A stretch of 64,000 nucleotides of DNA from Liolophura sinensis (Eukaryota; Mollusca; Polyplacophora; Chitonida; Chitonidae), in NCBI RefSeq assembly GCF_032854445.1, contig NC_088295.1, forward strand, positions 37,311,385 to 37,375,384, written 5' to 3'. Every line of letters begins with the position of its first letter. Positions within the stretch are counted from its first letter, which is position 1. The notes under the pieces were generated by a model. It was not told the DNA's origin and searched no databases. It was given only the letters and a program-made list of their open reading frames with translations. Both the position numbers and the translations under genes were made by a program. This document shows, in pieces, positions 1 through 28,795 of this stretch.

Positions 1-800
1 CTTGATTCAACCGTACCATCTGTGGTACACCCGCCTAGGAAGGTGCCAATAGCACTTAAGGCCAAGATCAAAGATGAACTTAATAGGATGCTTTAACTGG
101 GTGTAATTGTTAGACAGGAGGAGCCGACTTGGTAACAGTGGTCAAGCAAGATAAAGTCAAGATATGTATTGACCCAGGAGACTTATATCGGGCAAAACAG
201 CGGGAACACCACCCAATGAAAACAATCGAAGAGGTTGTATCAGACATGCCCGGAGCCAAGGTATTTTCAGTTTTAGACGCCAAGTGCGGTTTTTGGCAGA
301 TAAAGCTGGATGAAGAAAGTTCCAAGTTGTGCACATTCAACTCTCCAATTTGGTCTTTTCAGATTTACCATATTGCCCCTCGGCATAAAATCGGCACCAG
401 AAGTCTTCCAGCGCATTGTGTCCCAAATGTTAGAGACTGTTCCAGTTGCTGATTCGCTAATGGACGACATCCTGGTATAGGCAACCAATGACCAGGAACA
501 TGATGAACGACTGAGGAATATTTTGGAGAGAGCGTCAGAGTACAACATGAAGTTAAACATCATCAAGTGCAAGGAGCGACAATCTGAAGTCGCATATTTT
601 TTTAATTCATACAGTGCTTGGCTAAATTCATGCCAAATCTTTCAGATGTTACAGCACCCTTACGTGAGTTAGAACTGAAGGATGTTGAGTGGCACTGGGA
701 CAAGCCACAAGAGGACAGTTTCCAGAAACTGAAAGAATTGGCCATAACTGCTCCTGTGATCCTGGGTAAGGCAATGTTTAGTGTGCTTGGACTCTAACGT
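1..800 (+). pseudogene. Decayed Gypsy (Ty3-like) LTR retrotransposon pol fragment (reverse transcriptase)
   Basis: The plus strand reads as the start of a Ty3/Gypsy reverse transcriptase. A PPRKVP-like motif lies near base 30-50, followed by a GVIV..EEPT stretch. From base 129 come KICIDP, then HPMKTIEE, then the FSVLDAKCGFWQIKL block, which is the first aspartate region of Gypsy RT fingers and palm. Further pieces continue in shifting frames to about base 780. In-frame stops (for example near 93 and 478) and frame changes show that it is dead. It is cut by the window edge, so LTRs, gag and integrase are not visible. Family assignment rests on motif recognition only. Confidence 0.85.
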
Positions 801-5673: not shown

Positions 5674-5787
5674 TCATTGCTCTTTTTCCTTGACTAGACG
5701 CCTTAATGTTTCTAAATCTTTCTGAAGCTTTCGGACTTCAGCCTTACATTTAGCTTCTTCTTCCATCTCAACCATCTGACGCATTTC
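5674..5787 (-). CDS. Terminal exon of the Tudor/AlbA gene: coiled coil and stop
   Basis: The acceptor TTTTTGGACAG precedes an open frame of 37 codons and TGA at 5674-5676. The peptide starts EMRQMVEMEEEAK and continues with heptad-like Leu/Val spacing (VRKLQKDLETLRRL), typical of a short coiled coil. Phase 0 matches the preceding exon. Schlafen-like proteins often end in such a charged helix. This exon fixes the 3' end of the gene. Confidence 0.8.
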   Translation of the reverse strand, partial: EMRQMVEMEEEAKCKAEVRKLQKDLETLRRLVKEKEQ

Positions 5788-8700
5788 CTGTCCAAAAAGA
5801 CAGAGATTAACAGATCAAAACTCATTTGAAAATGCAGTTTTAAAACTCCATTGCTTTTCAACACTTGTGAGTGACATTGTTTTCATCAAACTGAGATCAA
5901 TGACAGAAATGACTAACACATTCAACTGTATAAGGATTTCACAGTATCAAATAAGTACAATTTATCTTCTTCCAACATCTTTTAATAACACATTTTAAAT
6001 CAAAATAACATTTCGTGAGATAGTTCTGTCTGCATAAATTTCTAGAAATTTTTTTCATTCATATATTACATTAACCGTACTGCTCGTCAAATGCCTTATT
6101 TATTTTGGGATCATTTATTTTTAACTTTCTTTTATGTGAAAGAAGTCACTGACCAGGCAAACCTCCTAACATAAGGCTGCGGCCTTTACCCCTCTACATG
6201 TAAGGACCTCTGATGTAATATATTACCATGATTACCCTGTACAGTATTCAACATGTAGGAAATCTTTCTTACCAGTGAGTCACCGATGAAATGAGAAAAT
6301 ACTTACCTGAGTGTTCAAGTGAACAGTTTTGGGACCTAATCTATAATAGAGCATTCCATTTCTCAAAGTGTACACTGTTCCTGGGCTGCACTTCAAAAGA
6401 ATTTCTGACAAGAACAAACATGAAAAGAACAAATTCAATTCATATGAAGCGTACAAAATCTTTAAACACATGAATTATATCCTTTCAGACATTACTTATC
6501 AATTTATTTATTTGATTGGTGTTTTACGCGATAATTGAGAATATTTCACTTATACAATAGCGGGAAGCATTATGGTTGAAAGCAGGCAGAGTTCTGGGGG
6601 AAACCATGACAATTTGCAGGCTGCTGACCAACCTTCCCAAGTAGGCTACAGCCGGAGAGGAAGCCTGCATGACCCAAGGCCTGTTTCACAAAAAGTCTAA
6701 AGGCTAAGCTTTTAACTCCGATGGATAACTCAGTTAACTGATTAGCAATTTTGTCTAACCTTAACAAAGAAAATATTTGGATATCGGCTAAAGCTTTTAG
6801 TCTCAGATTTTGAAAATTAGTCCAAAATCTCTATTTAAGGAGGCAAAATTGACATTAAAACTGTTGTGTGTCCGAGTTTTAAAGTTTACTAATTGATTCT
6901 ATAAAAATATGAATAAATCACCTTTTAACAGCACACAAAATTGTTTTTAAAGTTCACAAACCACTGAAATGTGTACTGCTATGTTGTATTTGTTTCGCTT
7001 TTACCATCTGTTGTGAGAGTTATAGCCCTTTGTTAACAAACTGTGTCAAAATGAAACTGAAGGAGAAATTATCACCCTTTTCTGTGATTTATACATGGTA
7101 ATGTAATATATATATTTTGGATATGATTTAACAATTACCAGCATTGATTCAACCAATCAGTTTGATGCAGAGCTGCCACATAGCAGGCTATGGTAAGCCA
7201 GGCTATGGCAAGCCTACTAAGCTTTAGACTTTAGGCTAAGCTTGTTTACTTTTGTAAAACAGCCTGGTCAATTTTTTTCATAGTCTACTTATGGTAGTCG
7301 GCTAAATGTCACTTAGCCAACTACAGAAGTTTTGCGAAATGGGCCAAAAAACTTTGGATATGTCAACTTGTCATGTAACAAGACATTTCAACCTTTCTTT
7401 CCTCTCAGAGGTCAATACATCAAACAAGCAGTGAAACATTCAACCATAATGACATCTAGCTAGTGAAGTTCAAGCACAAAGAAAAAATAAAACTCCTACC
7501 GGGTACATTTTGTAAATCTTTTATATTCTTTTTATATTAGCAAGATATTTCTTAAATTTATTGATGATTAGCTCAACAATGCACATATTTCTATCAAGAC
7601 TCACCCACAACAAAGACATCCTTTAATAGCTTTCTGGTCAGTGGGTCAGCATGACCTTGCGGCCTCACAACGGGACAGTAGACGATTTCGTACATAGAGT
7701 AGATGACAAGAGGTGTTAGCTTGTCAACCATCATACGATCCACTCCAAGGCGGAACTGGTCCCGCTCCTCTCTGTTCACACTCACTCCATGAACTCGGCC
7801 GTCCGGGCGAACCCCAAACACAATTCTGCCATCTCTACCTACAACAATCATATAAGTACCGGTAAGGGTTATGGAAAACCAAATTATGCATTAAACTGTA
7901 AAACCAGACAAAAACCTTAAAATTGACCTGCTGAAATCCGTCACACACATGTTTTTAGGTTCATCAACTTTATTTCTGTTTTATGGGCAAGAGGAAATGA
8001 AAATTCAGCTTTTTACATTGTTTGATCTTGATGTCTTTATGGCTTGGCAGTTTTTCAAGGCTTTCCGATTATGTAAGTTGGCCTTAAACAGGAAAAGAAT
8101 TGCTTGGACATGAAGTCAACATTTCCCTTTAATTAGACGATTTTCAAGTTTTATTTTGATTTCAATACCCTCCTACAACAATGAAAAATATTTATTCCAA
8201 CTGTAAAGCAATGATTTCCATTTATGTAACCTTAGGAGAAACGGACTATGTGAGCTGCCACTTATATAGTGAATTTGATTTCTACACGAGACTTTGCAGC
8301 TCGTGGGATTCAAGCAAGAACTAGTGCTAAAAGACATCAGAATAAACTGACCACAGTTGAGAAATCCACAGACAATCTGAGAGATGATTTCTGTTGAGGC
8401 ATGGGCTATACTCATCGAAGTTTGAAGCTCATTTTCTGCATCCTGCTCGTAATCCACTGGTGAGTCTATCCAAAATAAGTGTCAAACTTTACTCAAATAT
8501 TCACACTGAACAAGCATTATTCTGAAAACATTCTTCACATCCCTCCGTCAAGACATAGTTTAAGCCTTAAAAACACTGGACCAAACTAAAAGTCATTGAA
8601 CAGCCATGGAAATGTGGTTAAAAACTTACTGGTTTTAAAACTGGCAAGGGCTATACTGTGAACTCCATCAAATCTACTGACAACTCAATAACAGGTGTAT

Positions 8701-11700
8701 GTGATTATACTGAAATGCTGAAGTTCCTCAAGGTTCAATGAGCCTGTCTTTCTTTGTGTAGCTGGTCGATCAGAAGTGTATTGGTAAAAACCTCGCCATA
8801 TGGTATACTAATCAAGTATCGAAACACAAAAATTCATTAACTGGGTTTAAAGCCAATTAGCACAGAAGAATTAGATGCCTTTCTTACCTACGACATAATA
8901 TCTGTCTGAGCCCACATATTCTAATGTCGCATCTACTGGAAAAATGGCAGGAGACGATTCTACAAAAGAAAAGCAGTTTTTCATAGCTGGGATTACGAGA
9001 CGGAGGGATATGAAACTCGGCTGTTAGAGCCCATGGTGTTAGCCCAGGCAGTGTCACCACAAAGTCTGGGTAGCCCACGGCAAACCCGAGCAAGTCAACC
9101 GCTTCGGAAACTATTGCTGGCTGCTGGAGTGAGCCAATGTCTGGACAGAGCTGATGTCATATCCAAAAGACCTGATAAATACAGTCACTACGCCATTTGC
9201 CATAATGCCCGATAAGATATGATGTTGGCCGCTGTCTTGTAAGTGAAATATTCTTGCACACAGTGTAAAACATCAATCAAATAAATAAATAGTAACAGGT
9301 ATAAAAGTCCTTCTCTGTACATGACCCTTAATTTCTACATGATCTCCGATTGTTAACCCACTTTCCCGATCCCTGTTTGGATTTAAAAACATAGGTGTTA
9401 AAGCAAATCTCTAAGTCAATAAAATACACCCTCTTAAATCAAAACAGTATTTTAACTTCAAAAATTGTGTACACATAATTTACCTTACAGCTGATATACA
9501 CATAAGAGTTGTCTTAATTCTTCAACCACCACTGCAATAACTATTTTATAACACTTTTCTATGGTGTAACAGCACCTCTAGCATAAACCATGCTGATAAG
9601 ATCACAAATAAATTAAAGCGGTTGTCCTGAGAAGATATCGAAAGAACGTAAGCAAATATCAAGGTTGAATTCAGTGTCCATACAGAAGTCTCTTTTATTA
9701 TATCAACACAAGGCACAAGCATAGCAGCTAAATATTCACACTGGACTCTATACACAAATGATGATGATGTTACATATTGCAGAAGACTGTGAAACTGTAA
9801 CAACAGAAATACATCACCTTGGATGTTTCATAAAACAGCAACACGATCAAACTTACAGAAAATGAAAATACATCCCTCAGTGAAGCTTTCACATGGCATA
9901 GGCTACACATATAAACAAGTTAAATCGGTAGATGTTACAATAAAACAATACTTTCACGTACGATTATGAGCCCAATTTTAACTCAATTATGAGTTCCCAA
10001 CTACTAATTTCACTTTGCGGAGGGGCTGATCCTCTTCTGGATAAACTTCCGTTATTTGGGCAAGGTGCCAGTGGTCGCAGGACACACTGTCATTTTTCAC
10101 AAGTATTACATCTCCGATCTGTATGTTGTGTCGAGGAATGTTCCATTTCTGCCGTGGTGTAATGTTCTGCAGGTATTCTTTCCTCCATCTGATCCAGAGC
10201 TTGTTAGCGAAGGTACTGGACTCTTTTCCAACGCTTTCTTGTGCACAAGTCGGTCCTTTGGAATACTCCTGGAGGTGGCAAGAGTACACCAGGTTTCAAT
10301 GAAATGTAACTAATTCGGAGTCAATGGTTTCAGAGATGTAGGATCTTTAAATTGTCCACGGTGAGAGGACGACTGTTTATGATTGCATCTACTTCAAACA
10401 TCAAAGTTCTCAACAGTTCATCATCCAGCTGATTTCCGGCTTGATGCATAATAGTTGCTAGTATATTCCGCACGGAACGAATCTCCCGCTCCTATCTGCC
10501 GCCCATGTGACTTGCTGACGGCACATTCATTATGAAGCTGAAGCAGTCATAATTCTTCTCCTCCAAGTAACTGGGTTATGTGATCATGATCCATTTCCTC
10601 CCAAGCCCATTTTAACTCAGTTTCCGCTCCAACAAAGTTGGTCCCTCGATCATATTGGGGTTATCGGATTGAGCCTCTCATGGAAATGAAACGCGGCAGC
10701 GCATTGGTGAAAGCATCAGTCTTTAGTGAGTTTGCTGTCTATGTGGATGGCTCTGGATTCAAGACAGATGAATCTGCAGGTCTATCTACAGGTACGTCAG
10801 CCATCTTCTGTTGCTACACATTTGCCCTAAGCCTTCTGCACATCACACATTTGCAAATATAGCTCGAAACAGATGCAGTGGCTCCAATTATCCAGAAGCA
10901 ATTGGATCTGATTTCGCTGATCATCATGCTTCTTTCTTGATGGCTTCCTTTCTCATAAAAATGTCAGATAATCAAAGTCGTGACATGATGGTTTCGAGGA
11001 AGGATGTCCGGATGTCTCAAATCAGGATCACCTGAAGGCGTCCACCAACTCTCAATATTCCTTCACTGTCCACGAAAGATTCTAAGTGTTGAAGTTTACT
11101 ATTTCACTTGGGATCTTTCTTCCTCAAAGTTGTGCACTCCCTGTTTGTTCCAACACTGAATCTGGATTTCTGCACGTGCAGCAGTTCAATTTCTTCAGGA
11201 AAAAATTTCAATTAAATTTGCTTGATGATTTCAGATTCTCCAATCTTCAGTTCTTGCACATTCAACAATGCACTGGAAGGCACACTTGATTTCAGCTGAT
11301 CACTTTGGTTTGTAGAAGATAAAGCTGCTCTAAACTTTGTCTTACCTCTCAGGCAGTTGCTCGTTTCATACTCCTCCAACTGGAAAATCTATGGGGACAA
11401 TCAAGAATGTTCACTGGTTGACTTCTGTCAACTGTAAGTTGGGTAACAAACACTCTCTTCACTTCAGCATCGTCTGGGTCCAGTGTAGTCTCTGCCTTGT
11501 CAATAGGAGTCATTTCCATTTCTCAATTCCATAAATTCTTCATCGGCTGGATTGACTTCCCCAGATACATAGCTCCATTGATATGGACTCGAATGTTCAC
11601 CATGCAAACATGGAGCCTTTTGTTGTTGCTAGCAATACATCCAAGGACAACCTTGCTATCAGTCCAAAACACGTCATTCAGGTCGGCATCTCCAACTCTT

Positions 11701-14700
11701 TGCCAAGCAAGGCGCTCACTCTTATTGAAACAACAGCAGCATTCACTTCTAGGCGTGGAACTGTGATGGTCTTTATTGGAGCCACATGAGCCTTTCCCAT
11801 CAAGCAGGAGCAGCGCACTTGTTCGGAGTTGATCTCTACACATCTCTTGAAGTATATGCTTCACCACCGAGATAACTGGTGCAGCGAATCCTAATCCCAA
11901 ACGCACTTTTGACAAAATACCATGTCTTATTAGAGGTTGGTCTTTTAGATGTCACAAGAAAACAATACTTTCACATACATTTATGAGCTCAATTTCAGAT
12001 CATACTTATTAATAAAGAGAAAATGTAACATACCACTTTAGCTTCTCTTGGTTCTAAAGATGCTTGATGTTAATAAAACCGTTAAATATTTTGGCTGTGA
12101 CAGGAAGCTTTCCTACTAGTCGGACAGCCTAAGGTCAACAACCGAGAGTATTAAACAAGGGAGGTTACTCTAACAATAGAGCAGGATGCTGTTTCATATG
12201 AGGAGTAGAGAAATAATTTGTGCAGTTTGCAGCTTTAGTGACACAAACAAATCATTTTTAGCATCATTTTCATAATAATTCTAGCTATAGATATCTCTGG
12301 AAAATGTGCTTTAGTGGTAGAAAAGGTTAAAGATTTACTGTATACATGACATCTTAATTTTCAATTTTATATTTTACAGACTCCATTTCAGACAAAGACT
12401 ATATCATATGAAGCAAATTTCAAACCCTGTTTTCTCCCATCATCATACTGGCCTTTGCCATATAAGTGCAATATTCTTGAGTACGGTGTGAAACACCAAT
12501 CAATTAAATTTTAAAAATGGTGTGCATTTTTTTTGTGCTTGCCAAAAGCCTTGGTCTTTGCATTGCTTATTAGCTATCATTTATTGCATTTTTCTCTTTT
12601 GACTGGTGTTTGGAATAAATCCTAATGTTCATAATTCTAAAAACCTTGCTGCAGGTTTTCTGACTGATAGATTTTGTTGCGCAGAAGAATATTTTACTTA
12701 CGACGATTCTTCTCACAATTTTTAAATGTGAGCATCCGGTGAACCGGTTCTGATCAAATAGAAAGAAAAAGCACATAAAAAAATCCAGGTCACTCAGAAT
12801 TAGTCCTCATTCCAGTGAGATGTCTGAAGAGTTATGGCCATTTTGGTAAATTAGAGAATGGCTTCCTCATTTTTTCTATTAAGAAGCCACTCCTTATTGT
12901 ACCCACTGAGTAAGGATGACATCTAACAAGCTCAATTTGCTCAGGGTACAACTTGTCTGGTTGAAGATGGCCAATTGGCTTTTTCCTTCTGGATTTTCGA
13001 GGCATAAGTAATCAACTCCACCAAAAGAAAAAAAAATGCTTTGTAAAGACAGTTTACAATAACAGAGGGGGCTAAAATGTTAAATCAGCATTTAAGCTCA
13101 GAACCTGTGTGTACAAATTTTGCTTCACCACTCACATGAACATCAACAATATTTCAATCAGACTTGAATGGCACATTTTAAAAGAACTTTTCCATTTTCT
13201 TCCCTTTAATATATACATAAGTAGCCTGCCCAATCCACATGCTCTATCAACATCAAATGGAACCAACCTCTACCAGCCATACACCTGCTGACAGGTAATT
13301 ATTCTTCTGCGCTATAAACTATAAACATAAAATTATGCAATTTAATTTTTGCATTACCGCTTGGTTTTCATTTTACATGCTATACTGTGGTAAATAAATG
13401 CAAAAAACACTAAAATAATTGAAGACATTCCCAGCAATATTGAATGCGTCTTGTTGCTGAAATAGAGATCTAAAATTCAAATAGTTCTATTACTGAATGT
13501 CTGCTAGTGCAGGATTGCACTCTGGAATTAGAAATTACAACAAAACAGCTGACTTCTTACAGCTGTTCACATATTAACAAAAAAAGTATAACAAAGAAAT
13601 TAATCAAAAAACCAGGTCCAAATATGACTATTCAATGTTAACAAAACATGCTTTCTTGGTTTGTTCATTTTTTTTTGTTAGTTTTTTTCAAAGCCACTGA
13701 GGACAAAGAACACTACTCACAAACGTAAAATTATTTACATGCCAATTACAATCTGTAATCTACCAGGTTTTAATCACTGGGCATGGTGACTGAATTTTGG
13801 ACGGTTCGTCTTGGTCAGTTGATCGGACGAATAAACCTTTGCAATTTTTAAGTGTGATTTCCATAGCATTTTTATTCACTTGTGTTGAAGGTAGCTCTTC
13901 CAAACTTTAAAGGTACATGCACCACAGTGTAATGAAAGTTCTACATAAGTCCGATGCCTAAACAAAACAAAATCGGAATCTTCTTTTAAATATTAAAGGG
14001 CTACGGTGAAAACTCAAACATGAAAGAAAAACTTATTGACTTTTTCAAACAACAGAAAAAATGCATCAAATTTCATTATCCAAACATATATTTACTATAA
14101 ATAGGCACATTCCAAAATCATGCTGATCAAAAGCCAGCATTGTTCAGGCTTGGAGTGAACTAATGTTTCCTTCAGTAAAACTGAAAAAAGACCCTGCAGC
14201 TAGATCCAGCCGACATTTGAGAAGACATCATTTTGATAACAGTCTCGATCATACCACAAGAAGTGAAAAATTAATTTCGGTGGTAATACCTTTCGATTTT
14301 AGGATAGTTAATATGTAGAATTAATAAAATTAATAGAATAGAATTAATATGTAAGCAGACATATACTGTACTAACCTCAGTAACCTTTTCCGGAATCTGG
14401 TTGATGATTTTAGGCGTATTTTGACTGTTATATAGCAAAGCTTAAGCGATGTCCTCTTTAAAATTCTGTTGCTGGTGAGTTAATCTCGTGAAGTCTTGGA
14501 CTGCCGTGTGATCAAGCAAAGCGAGTACATGGTTCTCAAGCCTGACTGAACAAGAACAACAGAGTTTCATATCCCTCCGTCCCTCACAGTTTTTAGCGTG
14601 ACACAGTAGACGACGATAAAGTACATGTATAAAATATGCAAATATACACGCCCTGATCCATATATCAAAGCGAAATTCAGCTTCGGATTAATCTTTGTAA

Positions 14701-17700: not shown

Positions 17701-20700
17701 TACAAGTATGTTTACTATACCTGACTGTACATCTACAAGTATGTTTACCATACCTGGCTGTATTTGTACAAAAGAACTTGTAGAAGATTTTTTTCTAGAG
17801 AATAACCAGCACACCACAAACATTTCAGCAAGATGCTCAAAAGTCTGACCTTTAAAGACAGAAAAAAGACAGTAGACAAGCATAAGCTTGATTCTACATC
17901 ACAGGCTCATTTTGGACTAGCATGACTTACTTGAGACTGAGTCAGCTGTGCTGGCATCTTCCCTCTGTTGTGTTAGCCACTCCACATTCTCCAGAACCCA
18001 TTCTGAGGCTTTGTCTAAATCATCATCCTGGTCAACAAGAAATGTACACATAAGTACATGCATGTTTGTAATGGTGAGTTAAACAAGAATTCGAAACCTT
18101 CAGTCGGGATCCATTTTCAATAAGCTTTTGGGCCAATGGTAAGTATATGTACATGTTCGTGAGCATCGGAAATCAAGTGGTTCTGTAGATACTATCAATG
18201 GTGGGCATATAAAATGTGTTTGCACATAATTCTTCAATTCATGTTTAATCAGGTATATTTCTAGTTCATTTCCTTGAGAAGGCTAAAAAAGAAATTAGAT
18301 TTCAAATTGGCTATATAACCAGCCCGTTGCCAGATCAGAGAATACAAAGTATCTCTCTGCGTCTGCCTTACCCCAGCTTGAAGTGCCAGCCTGGCCTGGT
18401 CTTGTGTGGTCCCCAAGGACATGATTACAGCCAGCTTCTCATGATCAGGCTCCCACAGACCCTCACCGGGCTCAAACTTCACTGGCTCAGCTCTCAAAAC
18501 AGGCATTGCTGAGCAGTCTGCAGCAAAACACTATAATGTTAATGGTGAGCCATTCATGAAATTTCCTTAACTACAACCATAACGTCACAATGTATAATTT
18601 ACTAACTCACAGTTTCAATTTAACAACAATTTCAAGATTTAGCCTAAAACTGTAATCCAAATTAAATTCCAAAATATATGCATCAAACTGATAACATACT
18701 AATGGCCAACTCTCTGCTGTGGTAATACAATTTCAGCCAATTTAATTTATTTAATTGACTGGAGTTTTACGCCAGACTCAAGAATAGTTCACCTATATGA
18801 CGGAGGCGAGCATTTTATGCTTACATGATGTCAGTCAGTTTCATGCATGGGGGAGGAAACCTGAGTGACACGGCCAACAACGTTTAACAAGCCAATGGCA
18901 AGTGAGGACAAAAGCTATTTGTTGCATGTGACAGGTCTGTTTAGCACCCTTTTTGGAAATTTCTGAAATATTTTTAGCCATGTGTATCAAACTGTTTATT
19001 ATCACCAATGTTCCCAGAACATTAAAAGCAGGAGAAATCTACATATTCTCTTCCTAGGCTGGGTTTGAAACCACACCTCTTCTGTTCTAGTGTTTGACAG
19101 GCAAGCACCTTGTCAGCTTGGCTGGATAAGTTTTGATTTGATTGACTGATTGGTGTTTTACACCCTCCTCAAGAATATTTCACTTGTACTATGGCAGCCG
19201 GCATTATGGTGGGAGGAAAACGGGCAAAGCCCGGGGGAAAACTGCAACCGTCCACATGTTGCTGACAGTCCTTCCCACGTATCCAGCATGAGCTGGACTT
19301 GAACTCACAGCAACTGCATTGGTGAGAGGCTCCTGCGTCATTGCGCTGTGCTGCCATGCTAACCCCCTATGGGCAGGATGAGAATAGTTAATACAAAGGC
19401 AATGAACCATAAATTTAGCAGTTTTTGAAATTCTCATGCCATACACACAAATATATGCCTTAATACATGCAATAAATGTTCAACAAAATCAAAAGAAAAG
19501 ACCTATGTCATTCTGGAGATACCATAATGTGGTGAACTGGTACAAACGCCGCCTTTGTTCGAGAGATGTACTCTTTGTTTCCAGAAACAGGTCACTCGGA
19601 GTTTCGTCATCACTCTCACTGGTTCTCTGAAAATCCCAATTATACATATTAAATAATCTGGGAATTACAACATTCTTCTTCATCTCATATGGAAATCATA
19701 TTAATGTAAATTCAGTTCAAGCAATATCCTTTAAATGATAGAGAACTTCAGCAAGACTGGTTGTGGGTAATCTAACCAGTGCTAACAATTACAACCAAAA
19801 ACCAAGCCAACAGTCAGTGTCTTTGCAACCACTGCTCTGATTACTTGTTTGGGGTAAACTTTGAAAACTGACAGGTAAGGTCTTTATGTTAACACAGGAC
19901 GAGCTTGTTCTAAATCTACTGGTACCCATATTTACACACTTGTAGCTACACCTATACATATAGATGAGATAAATTATGCAAACCACATGATGAAGCTTCC
20001 TTCTATCCACCAAAGACATCTTAAACCAAGACACCACTTCCTAAACTGGTCACTAGATCACTGTCACCTTAAACAAAATTTCCACACAACAGCAAGGTCT
20101 CGGGGGCCATGGTGATAGGGTCGGATGTAATGTTATAAAAAACAAAAGGTCTGTATTTTTTCTTGGTATATATCATACATCGGCATCTGTGGATTCAAAT
20201 TCATTGCAACCATACTCAACATGATTATTGCTCAGTGCTGACAAGGTGCTGAGGATGAGTTTGAACAAACCTATGACTTGAGAAGTACATGTATGACCTG
20301 GATCAACAATATTAAAGGAAATGAGAGTAAAAGTAAAACTGTTGTTGCATGAAAACAAAAATACAATTACAATTGTATTTTTAATTGAAATATAATTGCA
20401 TTTTCTCTGTAATTGAAATACAATTGCATTTTCTCCTCTTTGGACTCAATAGCGATATAAGTTAGTTTATGTCCATTGCCGTATTGATATCAAATGTGAT
20501 GAACATGGACCTGTCATGCAGCCACTCATCTGAGACTAGAGGGAGACGTCACTATCAACTTAAACTGTGATGTAATTACAGCAATGGCCCAAGTAAACAG
20601 CCCAAGCCTAAACCTTATCCTTTTTGCATGTTTGTGGTTTTCTGAATTGAGCCTTAGATAATTCAGAAAATTTGACATATGTAGCTACATATACATACTT

Positions 20701-23700
20701 GGCTTAGTCACACTCTTACCCGTTAGTCACACTCTTACCCGTCGGAGATGGCGTTCACTCAACTGGACCTCGTGATATCGTACACTAGTCTCGACTGACT
20801 GACTCCTCCTCAGACTACTTCTGGTGTCACCACGAGATAAACTGCGACTACGGCTTCTTCTGTAAACGTGATATATGAAACAGCAATTTAAATTTAATAA
20901 CAAAAATTTGACTCCTGACATAGACTTACATATCCTGATAAGATTACTTCACTGCTGCCAAATGAAACTCCTTATAGTCCACACAGGTACATGTTCTGAA
21001 CTCAATCTGTGCGTCACCAGTGAAAAAATAACTGTAATGCACACAATACCACAAACTTTTCCCAGTTGATTCTTTACATACACGTAAAAAAACTGAGAAC
21101 CAATTTAAGTATGTAAAAACTGGACAGAATATTTTTTGCCCGGGAAAAAAAAAAATTCTCTATGTGACATTTATGAAGTATGTAACATAACGGAGACAGC
21201 GTAAAATCTGTACCAAGTTAAAAAAACAAAAACAAACAAAAAAAAAAAAAAAAAAAAAAAAAACAACAACAAATTATACAAAGTCTGTTTTTCCATACAC
21301 AGGGTTAGATCTTCTCCTCAAGGGTTTCACTTCTCCCTCAATCTCAAATCCTCTATCTCCCAATATTCGAGCCATCCTATCCTTCCTTGACCCACAGGAA
21401 TTGAGTGGCACATCCCTGAGGAAGATGCGCAGTAATCTGACCACAAACTGGTAAACTGTCTGTGAAGGACTGGAGGACAGCAGACGCAGAACCACTGTCA
21501 GGCCTGTCAAGATAGTTCCGCAGTTTTTAAATACTTTTAAAAACAGATTTTTTTTATCAATTATGCCTAGGCATTTAACAAAGTACTGCAAAGGTATTTA
21601 GCATTCAAAATCTTAAGGTTTCATTCACATCTTATTACCTCTGCAGATGAGGATATGTTTTTGCCAGCATGTCACCAATTTTACAGAAAAAGGCTTCATC
21701 ACATTTGGATGTGCACAGCTTGGCCTTGGTCCAAACACCAACACTTTAAACTTTTGAGGTAATCTGCATTCAGATCACTGCTTCCTTCACAACTGCCATG
21801 CAGAACACATGTGCACTGACAATGAATACTGCATGTGGAAAATTTGTACATTAGTAGTGATGGCTGAAGTTGCACTCATCCAGTGCCTTCTTGTCTTTAT
21901 ATTTCTGATTAGTAAACGTACTTTAAGATTTTTACTATTTTACAACAGCAATCAGGATAAGGGTAAAGGACAAGGAGCTGAGGAAAAAATGCCCTACACC
22001 AGGCCCTAGACTGACTCTATAATATAAACCCACAGTACAAAGGATATGAATGTGCACCCAATGTTCAACCACTAAGAAACATCTAGTAGAAGCTAGCCTA
22101 TTTGCATGTTTCGGCATACCAAAGTCTAAAAAGTCTGATTACAATCGAAATGGGACTTTGTGTAGTCAGCCCTGTAGCTTTATGAGTGGGAGCAAAATTT
22201 CTGAGAGCAGCGAAATGCTCAAGTGATTTATATTTGGTGAATGACAGCCCGCCCTAAATTTCCTCTGCCAAAAGTATTTGGTTGAGCAGCATACTTTGAG
22301 TTAATCAACTGTTTCATGAGGTAAGCACAGAAGAATGCGTACTGCATCACAAACTTGCCCATCAATTTGACTGTTTAGTTAAAAAAAAGTATCACCCATA
22401 CTACAAGTGTCAAGGAACTAAAGTTTCCATCTGACTGACATACACATGTAAAGAGACCCATGAATCTTACCATCATACTGGTAAAAAATCTCCCGGTAAC
22501 TCTTTGCCAGAGTCAACAGTGTGGACAGAGTCACCAGACAAGACTCCACCTGACTCTGTCTTACCTCATCTACATTAGATGTCATGCAGTCCACCAGGAT
22601 GTCTGTCAACACAAGCATATATTGTTTTAAAGGCAAAGAAAACATAAAAATCATGCCAAAAGCACATGAAACAGACTGAAATCTTATCTGCAAATATGGT
22701 CTTTAAGATTTTTTTCCATTTTTTCTTTCAGGAAAAAAGGGTATATGAAAATTTTTTTGTATGGTGAGTATTGGGACTAAAACTTGGTACATGTCATTTT
22801 TGCTTAATAATGTTCTAAATAAGGATGTGAAGTATATGTAATAAATTTATTTGACTGTAATGTTTTTGCTTATATCCAAACACATGCCTTTAACCTGAAT
22901 TATGGTAATATTTATGATTACATTAAAAATATAAATGTGATCAAAACCTACGTTGAACACATTTGTCAGCTGACCAAATTCTAGTTCAAATGTATTTATT
23001 CAACATATGCTACACCCTTATTTATAACGTACATTATTAAACAAAGACCATATACATGTATACCAAGAGGTGGTCCTATATACCCACTGTACAAAACTTA
23101 TTTTCAAATGTGTTTTTCTCTTTAGAGAAAAATCGAAAACAGTATTGAAGACCATATTTACAACTAATTTTTCACACTCTTTCATCTGAAATTTATATAA
23201 TTTTTAAAGGACAAGACCAATGAATTTTGACTGGGTTTCAGTTGTTTCGAGATGCCTTTTCACTAACAAAAGATCGACGCCCATGTAAAAATCAGTGTTA
23301 ATATAAGCAAGTAATTAATTAACCTTAAAATGGAAGTGACCCATGTGGTGCATAAAGGCAGAGCACCAATAACATAATACTACTGTCAGCACACAAGTAT
23401 GTCAATCATGGGGTATACAGTAAATTAACTGTTGTTTACATAAACCTGCATAAATTCACATCTTGCTCATAACATGTAACCAATTTGTACATACAGCTAC
23501 AGACCTGTACATTGTCATGTTTTATGACTGCTGATTATTTTGGCTGGCAGAAATCCTATATGTTGCTCAATATATAGGCTACTAGCCACACAGCTGTTTT
23601 TTTTATGTCATTTAAAAAGTGACACGTAAGCACTTAGTATCAGTAATTTTAACAAACGTTTTTTCGACCAAATATGGTCAACACCTATTCAAGGGAGAAA

Positions 23701-26700
23701 AAAATGCTATCTGACAGTTGTATAGGAATTATTCACCTTCAGTAAAGTTGTCCACAGTCATACATGTACCTGATTTACATACATTACACCAGTATGTAAA
23801 TATACTTTGATCTATAGATTACATCCTGCTCAGAAACATTTCACTTATATCGTATAGGGCTTACCCTTACTACGCATGTGTTTAATGTCATGAAAACGGG
23901 AATCAAGCAACCTGGCTTCACATATATCTGACAAACCCTAATTATTGTACTTCACCTAAAGTTTGGCATGTCAAAATGTACTTCCAGAAGCACATAAAGC
24001 TCTTAAAATGAATCTTTTGCTATCAACACTCAAGTTTTTGTGAAAAGGGATTAATCACAATTCACACTCTCAACTGGCATTATAAGGTTAATTAAGGTAC
24101 ATGTATCAATCTGAATCAAGCAAAATATGTCACTTGGAAAATGCTCAACTTTAGGTGAAATGCAGTATTCACAAACTGACATCATTCTTATTTGATGGTG
24201 ATTACAAGGAATTTATTACATGTATGATTGCATCGTGACTGCTTTCAGAAGGTAACTTGCCTACTCTTCCTTACAAATATTCCACCCACTGCTCTGCCCC
24301 CAAGGAAACTAAAATAACCTCCAGACAGGCCTCTCACCCATCACAACTGGCACAGTCTTAGAGGGCTCCAAGTTCTTCTGTACAGAGGTATTACAGGCCA
24401 GATTGTTGAGGAGCTGTATGGCCTGCACTGATACCCTCCTGTCTGGATACCTCAGTAGTGCACACAGCAATGGCACACCTGACAGAGTCTTAGCGAAAAT
24501 TTCACCTGCAGACACACAGACAAATAATATTCACAAAATACGCAGGAAAAATAAAAAAAAAAGTCAGAAATTAAAACTTACGACTGAGCATTTGATATTA
24601 TTGCTGGGGAATTTCTTTTCTTATTTGTTATAACTTGTTCTAATATATCACAGATCATTTATTCCTTGAATTGTTGTTTTACACCCCTCTCAAAAACTTT
24701 TCACTCATACTTGTACATTGGCGGTCAGTTTTGGGGTTGGAGGTGCCCTGGGCAAACCACTGACCTTTGGCCTGATTAGAACCAGGTTTAACTGTACATC
24801 GTAATATCGACTGAAAGACAAACATCTCTAACTTCTTTAACAGCCAAGACAGCACCTGACTAAAACATATTTCAATCGAAAACAGGAAAATCAAGCTTTC
24901 CAAAAAATGTCATACGTTATTATTTTAATCAGATTTCACCGAATAACGTGTAGAACCAACTGACAATAGTGTTGGAGTGGAGACAATACCAATGGCTTGA
25001 GTGAATTTGTTGTTGCTATTACGTTGCTACCAGATAGTGCAGTCTAAGCTGTGACGTAGGCTTTACCCATTCACTCCACAAAGTGACATATGATAACAAA
25101 GCACTACTGCATAAGACATCATTTTCGGATCATTTCAACAATTTAGTTATGTGCAGCTGAAGGGTCACCTCAAACATTGTTGTGAGACAGGTCTCATTTA
25201 CAGACCACCACAGACATAAAATCAGTTGATTTTCATGTACAAGCCATGTAATATTCAACTGCACTATCACAAATTAGGTAATACAGTAGCATACTGCCCG
25301 AACCGCATTCATCTCCCCAATAGACCCTAGGCCTACTTAGTCACTGTGTTCAAATTATTCAAATACACTTTTTGTCACTAATTTTAGCATTTAGTCAACA
25401 GTTTCTAAGTAACAAATATCAGAGTCAGTGCAAAATTCATGGAGGATGCTGAAGGTATATGGAAATGAGAAGACAACAAATGAGAAGACAGCAATGCTTA
25501 AAATTAATTAAATCTTACGATACAATTTTTTCTCTCTGAATTTATTACAACTGAAGAATTTAAATTTTGATTCATTGCCTTTGTCGCATACAAACGATGT
25601 TTTTTCTTTCTGTTCTCTTTTATAAAATACAGTATAATTATTGTATCGCTGTGATCAAGCCGAGATGCTTTCTCTGACATTCACAGTAACTAGGTCAGTA
25701 GTGCTCTCATCTTAAAAGCCGCCACTACAAAATAGAAGCATAAAATCCAGCGACAGTCAAATGCTTAGATTAGTCTCAGTGGTGCTTAGATTTATTTCCA
25801 TTTGTTTCAGTATTGAGCATGAATCTAGTTGTACAACAATACTGTTAACATTTAACAGGTGTCAAAATTACCAGCATATCATACCCCTCCAGAGGCTAAG
25901 ACCTGAACTAGGAATATCCCCACCAAGCATCTTCAGGCTATTTAAACAGGGTCGCTTGAGTTCCTTGTAAATGACATAGTAGGAATAAGGTATCAACACT
26001 TCAAGCAGCAGCAGAATTATTCTTCCAGTGTGTCCAATTTCCCAGAAAACTATTCATCACTTGGGCCTTCATCCCTGAAGTCAACAAATTCTATCTGCTA
26101 TAGACTACTGCTTTAGACTATTATACAGAAAATACCTTCAACATAAGAAAGCTAGAGTAAATGTGATGTCACCTTGCTCTCAATAAAGGGGAATAAAGTG
26201 CTGAATCACGATAAAGATTCACTAATCTTTTACTGGGTTGACCAAAATATGTTAAAAAAACACTTAATGCCAGTTTAAGATACTTTGAATGGTAGTCTTT
26301 CAGTGGACATAAACATTAGCCAGGTGCTGTCTTTCACTTCAACTATGTTCATTCCACTCTAGGCATTACCAATGGGTGAAACAGACTTACCGGCAGGTAC
26401 ACTGTATCTGCAGAGATTCACCAGACTGGCTATGGCAAGCTGAGGAAGCTGTGGAAACTTCGCAGGAGCTTGCACACCTGTACAGGTAGCAAAACCAACA
26501 GACATCAAATCTACAGGTGTCAGAGCTAGAATATATTGAATATTGAATTCGTGACTAGAGGTGAGGTTTTATGTGTAGAGGAAACCAGTATGTCAAGTGT
26601 AAATTTGTAAATTGTAAACTGATGACCTTTCACCTGATTTAAGTCATATTTGTGGAAGTGGTCTACGAAGTGAGAGATGGAAAATATTTATATATTTATT

Positions 26701-28795
26701 TATTTTATTGGTGTTTTACCATACTCAAGAATATTTCACTTATATGACGGCCGCCATCATTATGGTCGGCGGAAACCGGGCACAGCTCGGGGGAAAGCCA
26801 CGACCATCTGCAGGTTGCTGGCAGACCTTCCCATGTACGGCTGGAGAGGAAGCCAGCATGAGCTGGACTTGAACTCACAGCGACCGCTTTGGTGAGAGGC
26901 TTCTGGGTCATTACGCGAGATGGAAAATACACAAATTCCGTATCAAGGTATGGATTGAACTCACACCTCCACATGTGCCTTTAGGTTACTTAGGGATGTC
27001 ACTAGCAGTCTTATTCACTGAGCTTAACAGCCCACTCCGTATCATCAAAAAACTCTAAATCTTCAACTTTTTCCGCCTCTAAAGCACTATTTTCATTGGA
27101 ACTTGTGCGTCCAATAATAATGAAAATGATTCCAAGCAAAATTTATTTGTCGCTAAAGATGCAAGATTCATAAAACTCTGCACATTATTTCTCTATACCC
27201 CATAATTCTCTCAGAATGTTTCAGATTATTTGTTGCAGTGGTTGCTGAAAAGGTTGGAGAAATAGGGTATATGGCTTATCATGAGTAAACACATTGTAAT
27301 ACTGAGGAGATGAAAACATATCAACATGAATTTTGATGATTTCATTTACCCGCTTTCCATAAAAAAATGAACACTTAAGTTTTTATATTCTCAAACAAAG
27401 GAAAAATGGCTTCTGGATATCAAAGAACAGAATCTGATTCTGCCATCCTGGGTTTCTTAATCTGTTTCTTAATCTCTGTGCTATCAACTATAAACTCAAT
27501 TTCTTACACGCCTATACATCATTTGTGTGACTGTGCTTACAGTTCTCAAAAACTAAATTTAATTCAGGACATTTTTGATTTACCACATAGGACTTTGGAA
27601 AGTCAAGAACACTTAAAATGCCAGAAGACAACTTTACCATGGAGCATACAGAGTGATGCTAGTGGCGGCTGATCCTGAACACAGACTTCCTGGGGCAGAT
27701 GATACAGACTTGAGGTAGAGACTGAGGATAGCACCACACCCATGTCAATGGCAAACACCTCAAAGTTGTCTCCCCTTACATCTACTATACGCGCTCGGTA
27801 GAAATAAGACTCTGTAGTCGACCTTTCTGGGCGTTTCCTGACCATAACATGATCACCAATGTCGGGTGATGTCACAAGAGTTACACTTTCCGATAAGCTG
27901 ATCATTTTGTTATGTAAGTCCTGCATGGTCTTCACATATTGATTCATTTCACCCACGTGTGCCCAGAAGATGTGTCCTCCAACAACTTGCAGAACGTGAA
28001 TTTCGCTTTCCTCTAGCACATCAGAACTGAAATCAATCAGATTCAGCCAAGCTAAGTTATCTCCTATCAAAGCTTCTCCAATATTAACATCCTCATCTGG
28101 ATCACTTGTATCATACAGTATACAGCTATAGATCGTGTCAGCTAATGACATCCTATGTGAAAACAGTTTACAAGAATGTCTGTCAGCCTGTTCGTTGATC
28201 AAATTGATGACACTGGTATTTAAGGTTTTGCGTCTTATTTGAGCAAACAGGGTCTTGCCTTGGGTGTACGTGCGGAGTCTCTTAAACATAGCTGATGGAA
28301 ATTGATAAATTTGTGGGAGAGAAGGATCGAGAAAAGCCATAAGGCGCCGAATAACAGGCTCGGTGATTAAGGCATACTGCTGACAAATAGGCAGCTGTGA
28401 GAGATGCCAGAAGAGCTTTAGCGAAGTCTGGCAAAGCAACAGGGACAGTGTTCGGCAGTGAAAACTCCCATTCTTGTCAGACTTATCCGTAGGTAAAATG
28501 AAGTCATCCAGGAGTTCAAGAAGTACAGGAAGGACGTTCTGTTCAATGGCAGCAAAACGAACAATCTGATGCGAGTCTTGCTCAAACATCTGATTCAGAA
28601 ATGAGAGCGCTGCAAGCTTTGATTCTGGTGGGATGGATGCCTCAGATATCTTTAGGAGGTATGTGGTGATGTTTACAGCCTGATGTTTAGAGCATACCAC
28701 TGGGAAATTTTGGTCTGTGCTCCTTAACATTATATCTCCAGACTCCTCACTGTCTATGTCATCCCACATGGCTGCTGTCACACCATAAGTAAGCC
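5674..28795 (-). CDS. Multi-domain gene: armadillo repeats, Tudor, armadillo repeats, UBA-like, Schlafen-type AlbA_2, coiled coil (5' end not found)
   Basis: Thirteen exons on the minus strand were joined by hand: 28795-27638, 26477-26391, 24505-24338, 22602-22471, 21503-21299, 20859-20739, 19626-19523, 18517-18372, 18027-17931, 8456-8352, 7838-7605, 6404-6307 and 5787-5674. Nearly all have clear AG and GT borders and matching phases, giving about 920 residues. Domain order is armadillo-like helices, an extended Tudor domain, further armadillo repeats, an Arg/Ser-rich segment, a UBA-like domain, an AlbA_2 (Schlafen) domain and a Lys/Glu-rich coiled coil before the stop. Tudor domains bind methylated arginine, and many Tudor proteins act in germline granules and the piRNA pathway. 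AlbA_2 domains of Schlafen-like proteins act on RNA. A role in small-RNA or germline RNA metabolism is therefore an inference. One junction (19523 to 18517) has mismatched phase, so a small exon may be missing or the donor misplaced. The first exon upstream of 28795 was not found. A split into two genes across the 9.5-kb intron cannot be excluded, although the phase is continuous there. Confidence 0.75.
6307..6404 (-). CDS. Exon of the Tudor/AlbA gene: end of the AlbA_2 domain
   Basis: It is bordered by acceptor CTTGTCAG and donor CAG/GTAAGT, entering in phase 1 and leaving in phase 0. The peptide reads GEILLKCSPGTVYTLRNG, then MLYYRLGPKTVHLN. This is the usual last part of a Schlafen AlbA fold, where a strand with Tyr/Arg-x-Gly-x-x-Thr follows a variable loop. 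Confidence 0.8.
6500..6676 (-). mobile_element. SINE family 1 copy (reverse orientation)
   Basis: It begins with the reverse complement of the family's AATAAATAAA-type tail and the GTGTTTTACGC block. It continues through GAATATTTCACTTATA, GCATTATGG, a GGGGGAAACC-like segment and the CCTTCCCA...GGAGAGGAAGCC block. The tRNA-like head is missing. It abuts the candidate MITE that follows. Confidence 0.75.
6678..7346. mobile_element. Candidate MITE with imperfect terminal inverted repeats
   Basis: The left end GGCCTGTTTCACAAAAAGTC is an imperfect inverted match to the right end, which reads GACTTTTGTGAAACAGGCC-like as AGTTTTGCGAAATGGGCC. Subterminal GGCTAAGCTT-type segments occur in inverted order on both sides (near 6703 and 7200-7240). 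There is no open reading frame. Borders and target duplication were not resolved, so this is a structural call only. Confidence 0.5.
7605..7838 (-). CDS. Exon of the Tudor/AlbA gene: core of the Schlafen-type AlbA_2 domain
   Basis: The acceptor TTGTTGTAG and donor G/GTGAGT flank 234 bases in phase 1-1. With the preceding exon it forms FLNCGRDGRIVFGVRPDG, then RVHGV. This is the hallmark AlbA_2 pattern of a hydrophobic helix, Asn, Gly-rich turn, I-x-F-G-V and a D-G-x-V-x-G strand. DQFRLGVDRMMVDKLTPLV and EIVYCPVV follow, as in Schlafen and Schlafen-like proteins. The assignment is strong at motif level. Whether it is an active nuclease is not shown. Confidence 0.85.
8352..8456 (-). CDS. Exon of the Tudor/AlbA gene: start of the AlbA_2 domain
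   Basis: The acceptor ACTCACCAG and donor G/GTCAGT flank 105 bases in phase 1-1. The peptide is DYEQDAENELQTS, then the helix IISQIVCGFLNCG. The EQDAENELQ segment aligns in position with the E-x(n)-E-F-K motif that begins Schlafen AlbA domains, with Gln where Lys is usual. The helix before FLN is the expected one. The exon joins exon 18027-17931 in phase across 9.5 kb, the split codon becoming ATG. Confidence 0.75.
9200..9290 (+). mobile_element. SINE family 1 tail fragment
   Basis: The 3' part of the family is seen: GGCCGCTGTCTTGTAAGTGA, then ATATTCTTG, then GTGTAAAACATCAATCAAAT and the ATAAATAAAT tail. The head is absent or unrecognisable. It lies in the large intron. Confidence 0.65.
9985..11920 (-). 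pseudogene. Decayed BEL/Pao retrotransposon pol (RT/RNase H to integrase C-terminus)
   Basis: On the minus strand, 11915-11523 contains LGLGFAAPVISVVKHILQ and FWTDSKVVLGCI, typical of the Pao protease/RT-to-RNase H region. Between 10640 and 10330 it reads PSASHMGG, then IRSVRNILATIM, then ELLRTLMFEVDAIINSRPLT, which is diagnostic for BEL/Pao integrase. From 10289 to 9987 it reads RWRKEYL, QKWNIPRHNIQIGDVILVK and W.LAQITEVYP, the integrase C-terminal (DUF5641-like) end. Stops and frame changes break it. No LTRs were recognised. It sits in the host gene's large intron in the same orientation. Confidence 0.85.
12000..14770. other. Intronic AT-rich DNA without recognised genes
   Basis: It lies inside the 9.5-kb intron. 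A SINE family 1 tail (ATATAAGTGCAATATTCTTG, then GTGTGAAACACCAATCAA) is visible near 12455-12512. Otherwise only short open frames without domain features were seen. Confidence 0.5.
14780..15412. repeat. 71-bp tandem repeat, about nine copies
   Basis: Units start with TTAGTGTCTCTCCATAAAGC, pass through ATGCCAGACACAATTCTACT, and end CTGTTTACAGCATTACTTTG, then CTACTTAACAG. Starts fall near 14783, 14853, 14923 and then about every 70-71 bases. Copies differ by a few substitutions (for example TGACTCTTAATAAAGCATAC in two units), and one is shortened near 15300. It lies within the host gene's large intron. Confidence 0.95.
16090..16500 (+). pseudogene. C-terminal fragment of a Crypton-like tyrosine recombinase
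   Basis: The plus-strand frame around 16265-16470 reads HSLRPATTTVLADAGVSVMD, then VISVTSQRNESSIRSYVTK, then KRREISNIV. This matches the C-terminal half of eukaryotic tyrosine recombinases of the Crypton/DUF3504 type: a His-x-x-Arg box, an A-G-x-x-x-x-x-x-x-x-T-G-H-x-x block (here the GH is replaced by SQ) and the serine-tyrosine of the catalytic site in RSY. Upstream sequence is frameshifted. It is an old fragment within the host intron, on the opposite strand. Confidence 0.65.
17533..17638. repeat. Near-perfect long hairpin (about 45-bp arms)
   Basis: The left arm runs from AATAATGTTCGCATCAGGGT to GGTAGTTTTACATCA. The right arm is its reverse complement with about two mismatches, running from TGATGTAAAACTACTGTTAG to GATGCGAACATTATT. 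The short spacer contains ATACATTAC. No coding content was seen. It may be a foldback element or the core of a MITE. Confidence 0.9.
17650..17775. repeat. 33-34-bp tandem repeat, about 3.5 copies
   Basis: The unit CATGTACAAGTATGTTTACT followed by ATACCTGACTGTA is repeated starting near 17664, 17697 and 17730 with a partial last copy. It directly follows the long hairpin. A minus-strand open frame across it (17883-17632) is a by-product of the array. Confidence 0.85.
17931..18027 (-). CDS. Exon of the Tudor/AlbA gene: second half of the UBA-like domain
   Basis: The acceptor TTGACCAG and donor A/GTAAGT flank 97 bases entering in phase 0 and leaving in phase 1. The peptide DDDLDKASEWVLENVEWLTQ is the third UBA helix, with the typical A-x-x-W-[VLI]-x-x-[NH] pattern, followed by a Ser/Asp-rich linker. 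Confidence 0.8.
18372..18517 (-). CDS. Exon of the Tudor/AlbA gene: first half of the UBA-like domain
   Basis: The acceptor GCTGCAG and donor GGG/GTAAGG flank 146 bases entering in phase 1 and leaving in phase 0. After a linker, the peptide reads EKLAVIMSLGTTQDQARLAL, then QAG, the usual first two helices of a UBA domain with M-S-L-G in place of the common M-G-F or M-G-Y. Such domains bind ubiquitin. Its entering phase does not match the exon proposed upstream. Confidence 0.75.
18741..18910 (-). mobile_element. SINE family 1 fragment (reverse)
   Basis: It starts with the reverse tail and TTTATTTAATTGACTGG, then GTTTTACGCC, then CAAGAATAGTTCACCTATAT and GACGGAGGCGAGCATTTTAT. It then becomes diverged. 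It lies in an intron. Confidence 0.65.
19135..19368 (-). mobile_element. SINE family 1 copy, nearly full length (reverse)
   Basis: It reads GATTGGTGTTTTACACC, then AAGAATATTTCACTTGTAC, GGCAGCCGGCATTATGG, GGAGGAAAACGGGCAAAGCC, CGGGGGAAAACTGCAACCGT, CCTTCCCACGTATCC and CATGAGCTGGACTTGAACTC, ending GCATTGGTGAGAGGCTCCTG. The last part, reversed, corresponds to a tRNA-like head. It lies in an intron. Confidence 0.85.
19523..19626 (-). CDS. Exon of the Tudor/AlbA gene: acidic linker
   Basis: The acceptor ATTTTCAG precedes RTSESDDETPSDLFLETK, then SLEQRRRLYQFTT. The proposed donor TG/GTATCT leaves in phase 2, but the next exon needs phase 1. A weaker donor G/GTCTTT at about 19508 would restore phase. 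Alternatively a short exon between 19520 and 18520 was missed. Entry in phase 0 fits the exon before it. Confidence 0.55.
20739..20859 (-). CDS. Exon of the Tudor/AlbA gene: Arg/Ser-rich segment
   Basis: The acceptor CGTTTACAG and donor CGG/GTAAGA flank 121 bases. Translation gives RSRSRSLSRGDTRSSLRRSQ, then SVETSVRYHEVQL. Arg-Ser and Arg-Gly steps such as these are common phosphorylation or methylation substrates, but that is inference. The donor lies in a 19-bp tandem duplication, so a second identical donor sits 19 bases downstream (see findings). Confidence 0.75.
21226..21273. repeat. Poly-A tract
   Basis: A run of A with few interruptions lies just downstream, in the minus-strand sense, of exon 21503-21299. 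It is low-complexity intronic sequence. Confidence 0.9.
21299..21503 (-). CDS. Exon of the Tudor/AlbA gene: armadillo-like repeat
   Basis: The acceptor ATCTTGACAG and donor GT/GTATGG flank 205 bases entering in phase 1 and leaving in phase 2. The peptide GLTVVLRLLSSSPSQTVYQF, then VVRLLRIFLRDVPLN looks like two amphipathic helices of an armadillo unit. It is followed by a basic segment (RKDRMARIL, VKPLRRRSNP) leading into the Arg/Ser-rich exon. Confidence 0.75.
22471..22602 (-). CDS. Exon of the Tudor/AlbA gene: armadillo-like repeat
   Basis: The acceptor TTGTGTTGACAG and donor GATG/GTAAG flank 132 bases in phase 1-1. The peptide is DILVDCMTSNVDEVRQSQVE, then SCLVTLSTLLTLAKSYREIF. Helix-turn-helix hydrophobic spacing fits an armadillo or HEAT unit. 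Confidence 0.8.
22700..24300. other. Intron without recognised features
   Basis: AT-rich intronic DNA. A weak SINE family 1-like patch (CATTTCACTTATATCGTATA) is seen near 23836. Nothing else was supported. Confidence 0.5.
24338..24505 (-). CDS. Exon of the Tudor/AlbA gene: armadillo-like repeat
   Basis: The acceptor GTCTGCAG and donor ATGG/GTGAGA flank 168 bases in phase 1-1. The peptide GEIFAKTLSGVPLLCALLRY, then SVQAIQLLNNLACN has the classic armadillo pattern, including the A-x-x-x-L-x-N-L-A-x-N helix 3. Confidence 0.85.
24660..24800 (-). mobile_element. Diverged SINE family 1 fragment (reverse)
   Basis: TTGTTGTTTTACACCCCTCT, then CTTTTCACTCATACTTGTAC, GGCGGTCAGTTTTGGGGTTG and GCCCTGGGCAAACC follow the family's order with many changes. 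Confidence 0.45.
26391..26477 (-). CDS. Exon of the Tudor/AlbA gene: link from Tudor to armadillo repeats
   Basis: The acceptor CCTGTACAG and donor G/GTAAGT flank 87 bases in phase 1-1. The peptide GVQAPAKFPQLPQLAIASLV, then NLCRYSVPA completes the conserved end of the Tudor fold and begins the second armadillo block. Confidence 0.8.
26690..26915 (-). mobile_element. SINE family 1 copy, nearly full length (reverse)
   Basis: From the TTTATTTATTTTATTGGTG tail it continues GAATATTTCACTTATATGAC, GGCCGCCATCATTATGGTCG, ACCGGGCACAGCTCGGGGGA, CCACGACCATCTGCAGGTTG and CATGAGCTGGACTTGAACTC, to GGTGAGAGGCTTCTGGGTCA. It is intronic in the Tudor/AlbA gene. Confidence 0.9.
27638..28795 (-). CDS. Largest exon of the Tudor/AlbA gene: armadillo-like region plus extended Tudor domain
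   Basis: The acceptor ATGTTTACAG (phase 1) begins the exon, and CATG/GTAAAG ends it. The first ~250 residues are helical with armadillo/HEAT-like spacing (SKLAALSFLNQMFEQD, QNVLPVLLELLDD, TSLKLFWHLSQLP). The last ~120 residues form an extended Tudor domain: IHVLQVVGGHIFWAHVGEM, then IGDHVMVRK, YFYRARIVDVRGDNFEVFAI, DMG, LYHLP and QPPLASLCMLHG. This matches the OB-like half, the Tudor barrel with Y-x-R-A and D-x-G, and the closing P-P-x-A-x-x-C-x-L motif. One aromatic cage position seems substituted, since V.AIDMG replaces the usual F.DYG. An upstream exon is required but was not found. Confidence 0.85.

Follow-up and report, generated by a model that had tools for sequence, protein, structure and literature searches.

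The ribonuclease complex PUCH has been described in C. elegans, which raises the question of how far Schlafen-type nucleases participate in small-RNA processing in other animals. A locus of the chiton Liolophura sinensis bears on it, since an earlier note had read there one protein joining a Tudor domain to a Schlafen-type AlbA_2 domain through armadillo repeats and a UBA-like module. Is this a single chain, and would such a chain cut RNA? The window referred to below is the whole analysed stretch of 64,000 nucleotides, and all positions are counted from its first letter. At a rough probability of 0.44, the locus is read here as one 14-exon gene for a 932-residue Tudor, armadillo-like, UBA-like and AlbA_2 protein that would act as a non-catalytic scaffold and pair with a catalytic Schlafen-like protein.

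The gene model runs on the minus strand from 28769 to 5674 and consists of 14 exons and 13 GT-AG introns with 932 open codons and a TGA stop at 5674 (Table 1). The single predicted reading frame with Tudor, armadillo-like, UBA-like and AlbA_2 parts in that order, as originally proposed, is carried by this model, and the open frame as such is established at the level of sequence. Phases are compatible at all 13 junctions, a figure that is no independent statistic, since the exons were partly picked by phase. The phase-compatible minus-strand exons first described for the locus were thus recovered; their number is 14 instead of 13 because the exon at 6404-6307 is required by phase. The support of this exon is more independent of the phase choice. 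It is the best splice-scored candidate within 7600-5800 with the phases required, and the AlbA_2 profile match crosses it and reaches profile position 117 of 118.

Table 1. Positions of the predicted gene, of other features of the window and of the two further Schlafen-like genes
Feature	Position	Strand	Content and support
Exon 1	27638-28769	-	ATG at 28769; 377-codon open frame; aa 1 to about 240 without recognised domain, most of Tudor domain from aa about 255
Exon 2	26391-26477	-	Tudor end (CMLHG-VQAP), armadillo-like start; acceptor 4.2, donor 10.7
Exon 3	24338-24505	-	Armadillo-like; fraction 0.010 of 104 open intron windows as good in codon use
Exon 4	22471-22602	-	Armadillo-like; 0 of 204 open intron windows as good
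Exon 5	21299-21503	-	Armadillo-like and linker; weak donor TGT/gtatgg; codon use 0.055
Exon 6	20739-20859	-	Arg/Ser-rich linker; codon use 0.426
Exon 7 (uncertain)	19548-19626	-	Acidic linker; poor donor GGC/gtttgt; codon use 0.007 of 541 windows
Exon 8	18372-18517	-	UBA-like module, first half
Exon 9	17931-18027	-	UBA-like module, second half; donor CAA/gtaagt; codon use 0.003 of 387 windows
Intron between the halves	8960-17930	-	8,971 bases; retroelement remnants and minisatellite
Exon 10	8888-8959	-	Link into Schlafen part; 72 bases, frame-neutral; acceptor 3.8, donor 10.0; codon use 0.241
Exon 11	8352-8465	-	AlbA_2; position of the SLFN catalytic Glu/Glu/Lys reads DYEQDAENELQ; codon use 0.080
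Exon 12	7605-7838	-	AlbA_2 core (GRIVFGVRPDG...); 0 of 33 open intron windows as good
Exon 13	6307-6404	-	AlbA_2 end; found by phase search; codon use 0.481
Exon 14	5674-5787	-	Charged tail and TGA stop; codon use 0.017 of 301 windows
Reverse transcriptase fragment	114-452	+	RVT_1, below cut-off
Reverse transcriptase fragment	29713-29976	-	RVT_1, below cut-off
Toll-like receptor	40133-42976	+	LRR and TIR domains; 947-codon frame (stop to stop)
Repeated cysteine-rich stretches	51491-57001	+	VWC-like by eye; tandem repeat at 51695-51833
Tc1/mariner-like transposase	59150-60163	-	DDE_3, HTH_Tnp_Tc3_2; 337-codon frame
Schlafen-like gene C3	L001 = G000:C3:23236500-23244000		E, E, K kept
Schlafen-like gene C5	L002 = G000:C5:1928500-1936000		E, E, K kept

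Codon use of each exon was compared with overlapping open intron windows, exon 1 being part of the training set and having no comparison windows of its own. It is distinctive for exons 3, 4, 7, 8, 9, 12 and 14 (fractions 0 to 0.017), moderate for exons 2, 5 and 11 (0.055-0.080) and not distinctive for exons 6, 10 and 13 (0.24-0.48). When exon 7 is omitted and the acceptor at 18530 is taken, the frame is still kept and gives 910 residues. A perfect 19-base tandem duplication at 20704-20742 spans the donor of exon 6 (20739), and use of the second donor copy would lead to a stop codon. For the C-terminal tail no coiled coil is claimed, since its crude coiled-coil score of 1.025 lies within the range of 50 shuffles, which reach 1.113.

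Two candidate exons were discarded. The one at 9372-9297 mismatches in phase. The other, at 27078-27019, had been included in the first, 963-residue model and was removed owing to its poor splice sites and its position in a dispersed repeat (DNA matches of 76% over 183 bases in the C3 locus, L001, and 74% over 199 bases in the C5 locus, L002); the frame is intact without it, exon 2 joining exon 1 directly. Copies of this repeat lie at about 27050-27260 and at 12227-12337 of the window, at 5458-5640 of L001 and at 749-934 of L002, with 70-76% DNA identity. The repeat mimics a coding exon and is a trap for gene prediction.

The chief doubt concerns the 8,971-base intron between the two halves. 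The intron contains retroelement remnants at about 9990-10963 (DUF5641, E 5.1e-20, above cut-off, and Integrase_H2C2, E 1e-4, below cut-off), which we take to be of the BEL/Pao type, as well as a minisatellite with a 71-base unit at 14780-15405. Its size and its retroelement remnant would agree with a pair of adjacent same-strand genes, the first (armadillo-Tudor-UBA) terminating around 17.9 kb and the second, a short Schlafen-like one, beginning around 9 kb. Such an arrangement would also make use of the in-frame stop 11 bases past the donor of exon 9, of the AATAAA at 17301, the first of the intron's 14 AATAAA/ATTAAA sites, and of the in-frame ATG at 8984, a short way ahead of exon 10. Past the final stop of the model, the nearest AATAAA/ATTAAA site is at 4941, 733 bases away. 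However, a good donor and acceptor meet at this join with matching phase, and the frame fits even if exon 10 is skipped. The donor of exon 9 scores 9.3, with 0.22 sites as good per kb, and the acceptor of exon 10 scores 3.8, with 2.27 as good per kb; if there were two genes, a near-consensus donor 11 bases ahead of the stop would have to be there by chance. Two genes are considered rather unlikely. Judged from the splice sites and frame, both halves probably belong to one gene, with a single transcript presumably crossing the intron.

In the single predicted chain, the Tudor domain follows an N-terminal region in which no Pfam family was found at E≤10 (residues 1-243). The domain itself was borne out on a 171-residue fragment by PF00567 (34.0 bits against a cut-off of 23, E 3.4e-8) and by a profile derived from 14 of this genome's Tudor domains, to which it scored 35.8 bits (200 shuffles gave no more than 4.4). 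It was absent from the full-length Pfam scan at E≤1, and the Tudor part gave no Tudor match among PDB sequences. Exon 1, folded from its sequence alone, gave an uninformative model, with a mean pLDDT of 36.4 and every residue below 70. The DYGN block provides the aromatic cage and asparagine of extended Tudor domains that read sDMA. Here it reads DMGV, against D[YF]G[NC] in the 14 same-genome domains, themselves chosen by a motif of that type. The cage and asparagine of an sDMA reader are accordingly not present at these positions, and the loss of the DYGN signature, like the Tudor domain, is established by comparison of sequences.

After the Tudor domain, the chain continues with an armadillo-like block, in part agreement with the earlier note; armadillo repeats ahead of Tudor are unproven because of the lack of any Pfam family at E≤10 in residues 1-243. 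Arm_2 exceeded its cut-off of 20.4 (22.2 bits) solely when a fragment from an earlier set of exons was scanned; there it was outscored by V-ATPase_H_N, which yet stayed below its own cut-off; in the full-length chain Arm_2 reached 17.6 bits, under the cut-off. Among PDB sequences, the block shows similarity to importin alpha-3, at an E of 9.5e-5 that adds up weak stretches, and a fainter one to ZYG11B (E 0.09). The UBA-like module likewise stands as a weak resemblance, to the UBA of USP5 (E 1.9e-4), the top PDB-sequence row being a designed repeat protein that sums many weak matches. Pfam UBA_7 stays below its cut-off of 27 both on the fragment (22.8 bits, E 8.7e-5) and in the full-length chain (15 bits).

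The likeness to importin alpha-3, ZYG11B and USP5 could also point to one protein with an ordinary adaptor role outside small-RNA biology, such as a scaffold of the ubiquitin or importin type. The MGF/Y loop of UBA domains makes the contact with ubiquitin. Against such an adaptor, the MGF of the USP5 UBA aligns to LGT in the module; Tudor and Schlafen modules, moreover, are better known from RNA biology, which is background and not a test. The adaptor is regarded as unlikely.

The Schlafen AlbA_2 domain (PF04326) postulated for the C-terminal part was confirmed in the full chain, with 31.6 bits against a cut-off of 25.3 (E 2.7e-7, profile positions 10-117 of 118). AlbA_2 was the only family above its own cut-off in the full-length Pfam scan, and no helicase family was found in that scan. 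Pairwise, the Schlafen part of the window protein gives 32.5 bits against the Schlafen region of gene C3 and 31.6 bits against that of C5. When it alone was compared with PDB sequences, no Schlafen match appeared at E≤10, and it came up in a genome search with C3 at no better than E 0.99. A profile including C3 and C5 matches Schlafen structures; as it contains both, this is no test of the window part.

The genome contains at least three Schlafen-like genes, and further ones may exist, as the own-genome searches were incomplete. C3 gives an AlbA_2 match of 77 bits and matches a SLFN11 chain at E 7e-9. Its ETRNVEFK aligns with ESQLVEFK of SLFN11, with the E-x4-E-x-K spacing of residues 209, 214 and 216; C5 reads EEDFLHEFK at the same position. 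The equivalent of K216 in both genes was assigned by spacing. A candidate charged 3' exon was also seen in C3.

In SLFN11, residues E209, E214 and K216 are described as essential, whereas D252A is tolerated, and SLFN members without an equivalent of one of the three residues are described as nuclease-deficient (PMC9482658). In the window protein these equivalents are not all present. MAFFT alignment to C3 places E753, E757 and E759 at the E, E and K positions, and the ungapped alignment to C5 places Q754, E759 and Q761 there. Since the two alignments disagree (E753 vs Q754), the first residue is Glu or Gln depending on the alignment. No Glu pair with five-residue spacing occurs in residues 745-790, and no lysine occurs in residues 724-823; none of the alignments places one at the K216 position. 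The lysine loss, established like the Schlafen domain from sequence, is the only predicted catalytic change independent of the alignment.

These residues weigh on the suggestion of a PUCH nuclease and its Tudor partner combined in one chain, and on the related reading of a fused protein with an active Schlafen ribonuclease. The AlbA_2 score above the curated cut-off would be in keeping with such an enzyme, as would the second position, which is Glu in both alignments, and the first, which is Glu in one of them (E753, against C3). The absence of lysine, the Gln residues at both the first and third positions in the ungapped C5 alignment, and the single AlbA_2 stretch of the chain argue against it. 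The SLFN endoribonucleases have two lobes, and one AlbA_2 stretch was detected in the 932 residues, although a divergent second SLFN lobe would escape detection by the AlbA_2 profile. As the lysine required in SLFN11 is missing, the original suggestion is unsupported as far as an enzyme is concerned; the enzyme reading is unlikely, and a true one-chain PUCH with Tudor factor very improbable. The window protein would probably lack nuclease activity. With a Schlafen part devoid of the RNA-cutting lysine of its relatives, a scaffold is more likely than a nuclease, and the scaffold reading is plausible. The altered ligand sites (the Schlafen residues, DMGV and LGT) would suit a scaffold.

The own-genome searches provide the context of this putative scaffold. 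No second copy of the gene was found with the first, 963-residue model as the query; the 16 matches were 15 of its own exons (the dropped one included) and a weak match on C4 (E 1.04). Outside this genome, exon 1 had no homologue in the genome_contigs and viral_contigs collections; neither is designed to cover animals, and the result is no sign that homologues are lacking. The Tudor search gave at least 36 matches and the AlbA_2 family search at least two places, the window's own domain being absent from both sets. The PIWI-domain search gave nine matching stretches across two contigs, with no distinction between PIWI and Argonaute proteins, and PLDc_2 matches were recorded as counts, without Zucchini being singled out. 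PIWI-domain genes and 36 Tudor matches are ordinary for an animal. The window gene is a concrete candidate for Schlafen-Tudor coupling in other animals, and its genome also shows two Schlafen-like genes retaining E, E and K, PIWI-domain genes and many Tudor matches.

The following mechanism can be proposed for the non-catalytic scaffold. The N-terminal region, the Tudor domain, the armadillo-like repeats, the Arg/Ser-rich and acidic linkers, the UBA-like module and the C-terminal AlbA_2 domain would form one chain, whose armadillo and Tudor surfaces would bind partner proteins. The inactive Schlafen domain could pair with a catalytic Schlafen-like protein, for example the product of C3 or C5, and this pairing would position or activate the partner nuclease, which the window protein would bring to its site. 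Three systems serve as the analogy. PUCH is a trimer of single-SLFN chains with catalytic residues in TOFU-2 and not in TOFU-1, and C. elegans TOFU-1 contacts the eTudor domain of TOFU-6 outside the aromatic cage (PMC10567574). In Bombyx Vreteno, an eTudor pocket distinct from the cage binds Gtsf1L (PMC10711660), and an inactive SLFN11 protomer, when added, increases wild-type activity (PMC9482658). Partner binding, any RNA target and any germline or piRNA role are inferred. A more specific version is improbable: a single-chain docking subunit, whose dead Schlafen domain and Tudor domain lacking the typical cage signature would capture a separate active nuclease (C3 or C5) on small-RNA precursors in germ granules, as an independently evolved counterpart of TOFU-1/TOFU-6 outside nematodes.

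The Tudor-armadillo-UBA-AlbA_2 protein is a credible, unusual domain combination assembled from known parts. That no family with this domain order had been described holds among the matches listed in the open PMC literature; subscription papers and proteome databases lay outside the search, and relatives entered under plain database names may have been missed. Like the germline TDRD proteins, it has a Tudor domain, recognised by PF00567 on a fragment and by the own-genome profile. Unlike them, it has DMGV for DYGN and one detected Tudor domain with armadillo-like repeats directly after it. With the endoribonucleases SLFN11, SLFN12, SLFN13 and SLFN14 it shares AlbA_2, C3 aligning with their catalytic lobe and the window part with C3; it differs in its single AlbA_2 stretch where they have two lobes, in the absence of any helicase family match and of an equivalent of K216, and in an E209 that is lost or shifted. 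A single C-terminal SLFN fold is also described for mammalian SLFNL1 (PMC10567574), which was compared by description only. Because C3 matches AlbA_2 far better, it is the likelier SLFNL1-type gene.

The comparison with PUCH (TOFU-1, TOFU-2 and SLFL-3/4) and the PETISCO subunit TOFU-6 shows both likeness and difference, as far as the sections of PMC10567574 drawn on here describe them. One SLFN-type fold per chain is common to PUCH and the window protein, where it is represented by one AlbA_2 stretch as judged by sequence, and an eTudor-type domain stands in the same functional setting. In contrast, the Schlafen and Tudor parts are separate polypeptides in C. elegans, the catalytic residues of PUCH are located in TOFU-2, and those sections mention no Tudor, armadillo or UBA module for TOFU-1. 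TOFU-1 is, like the window protein, an SLFN chain without catalytic residues (PMC10567574). At most, the window protein would resemble such a non-catalytic PUCH subunit joined to a Tudor domain.
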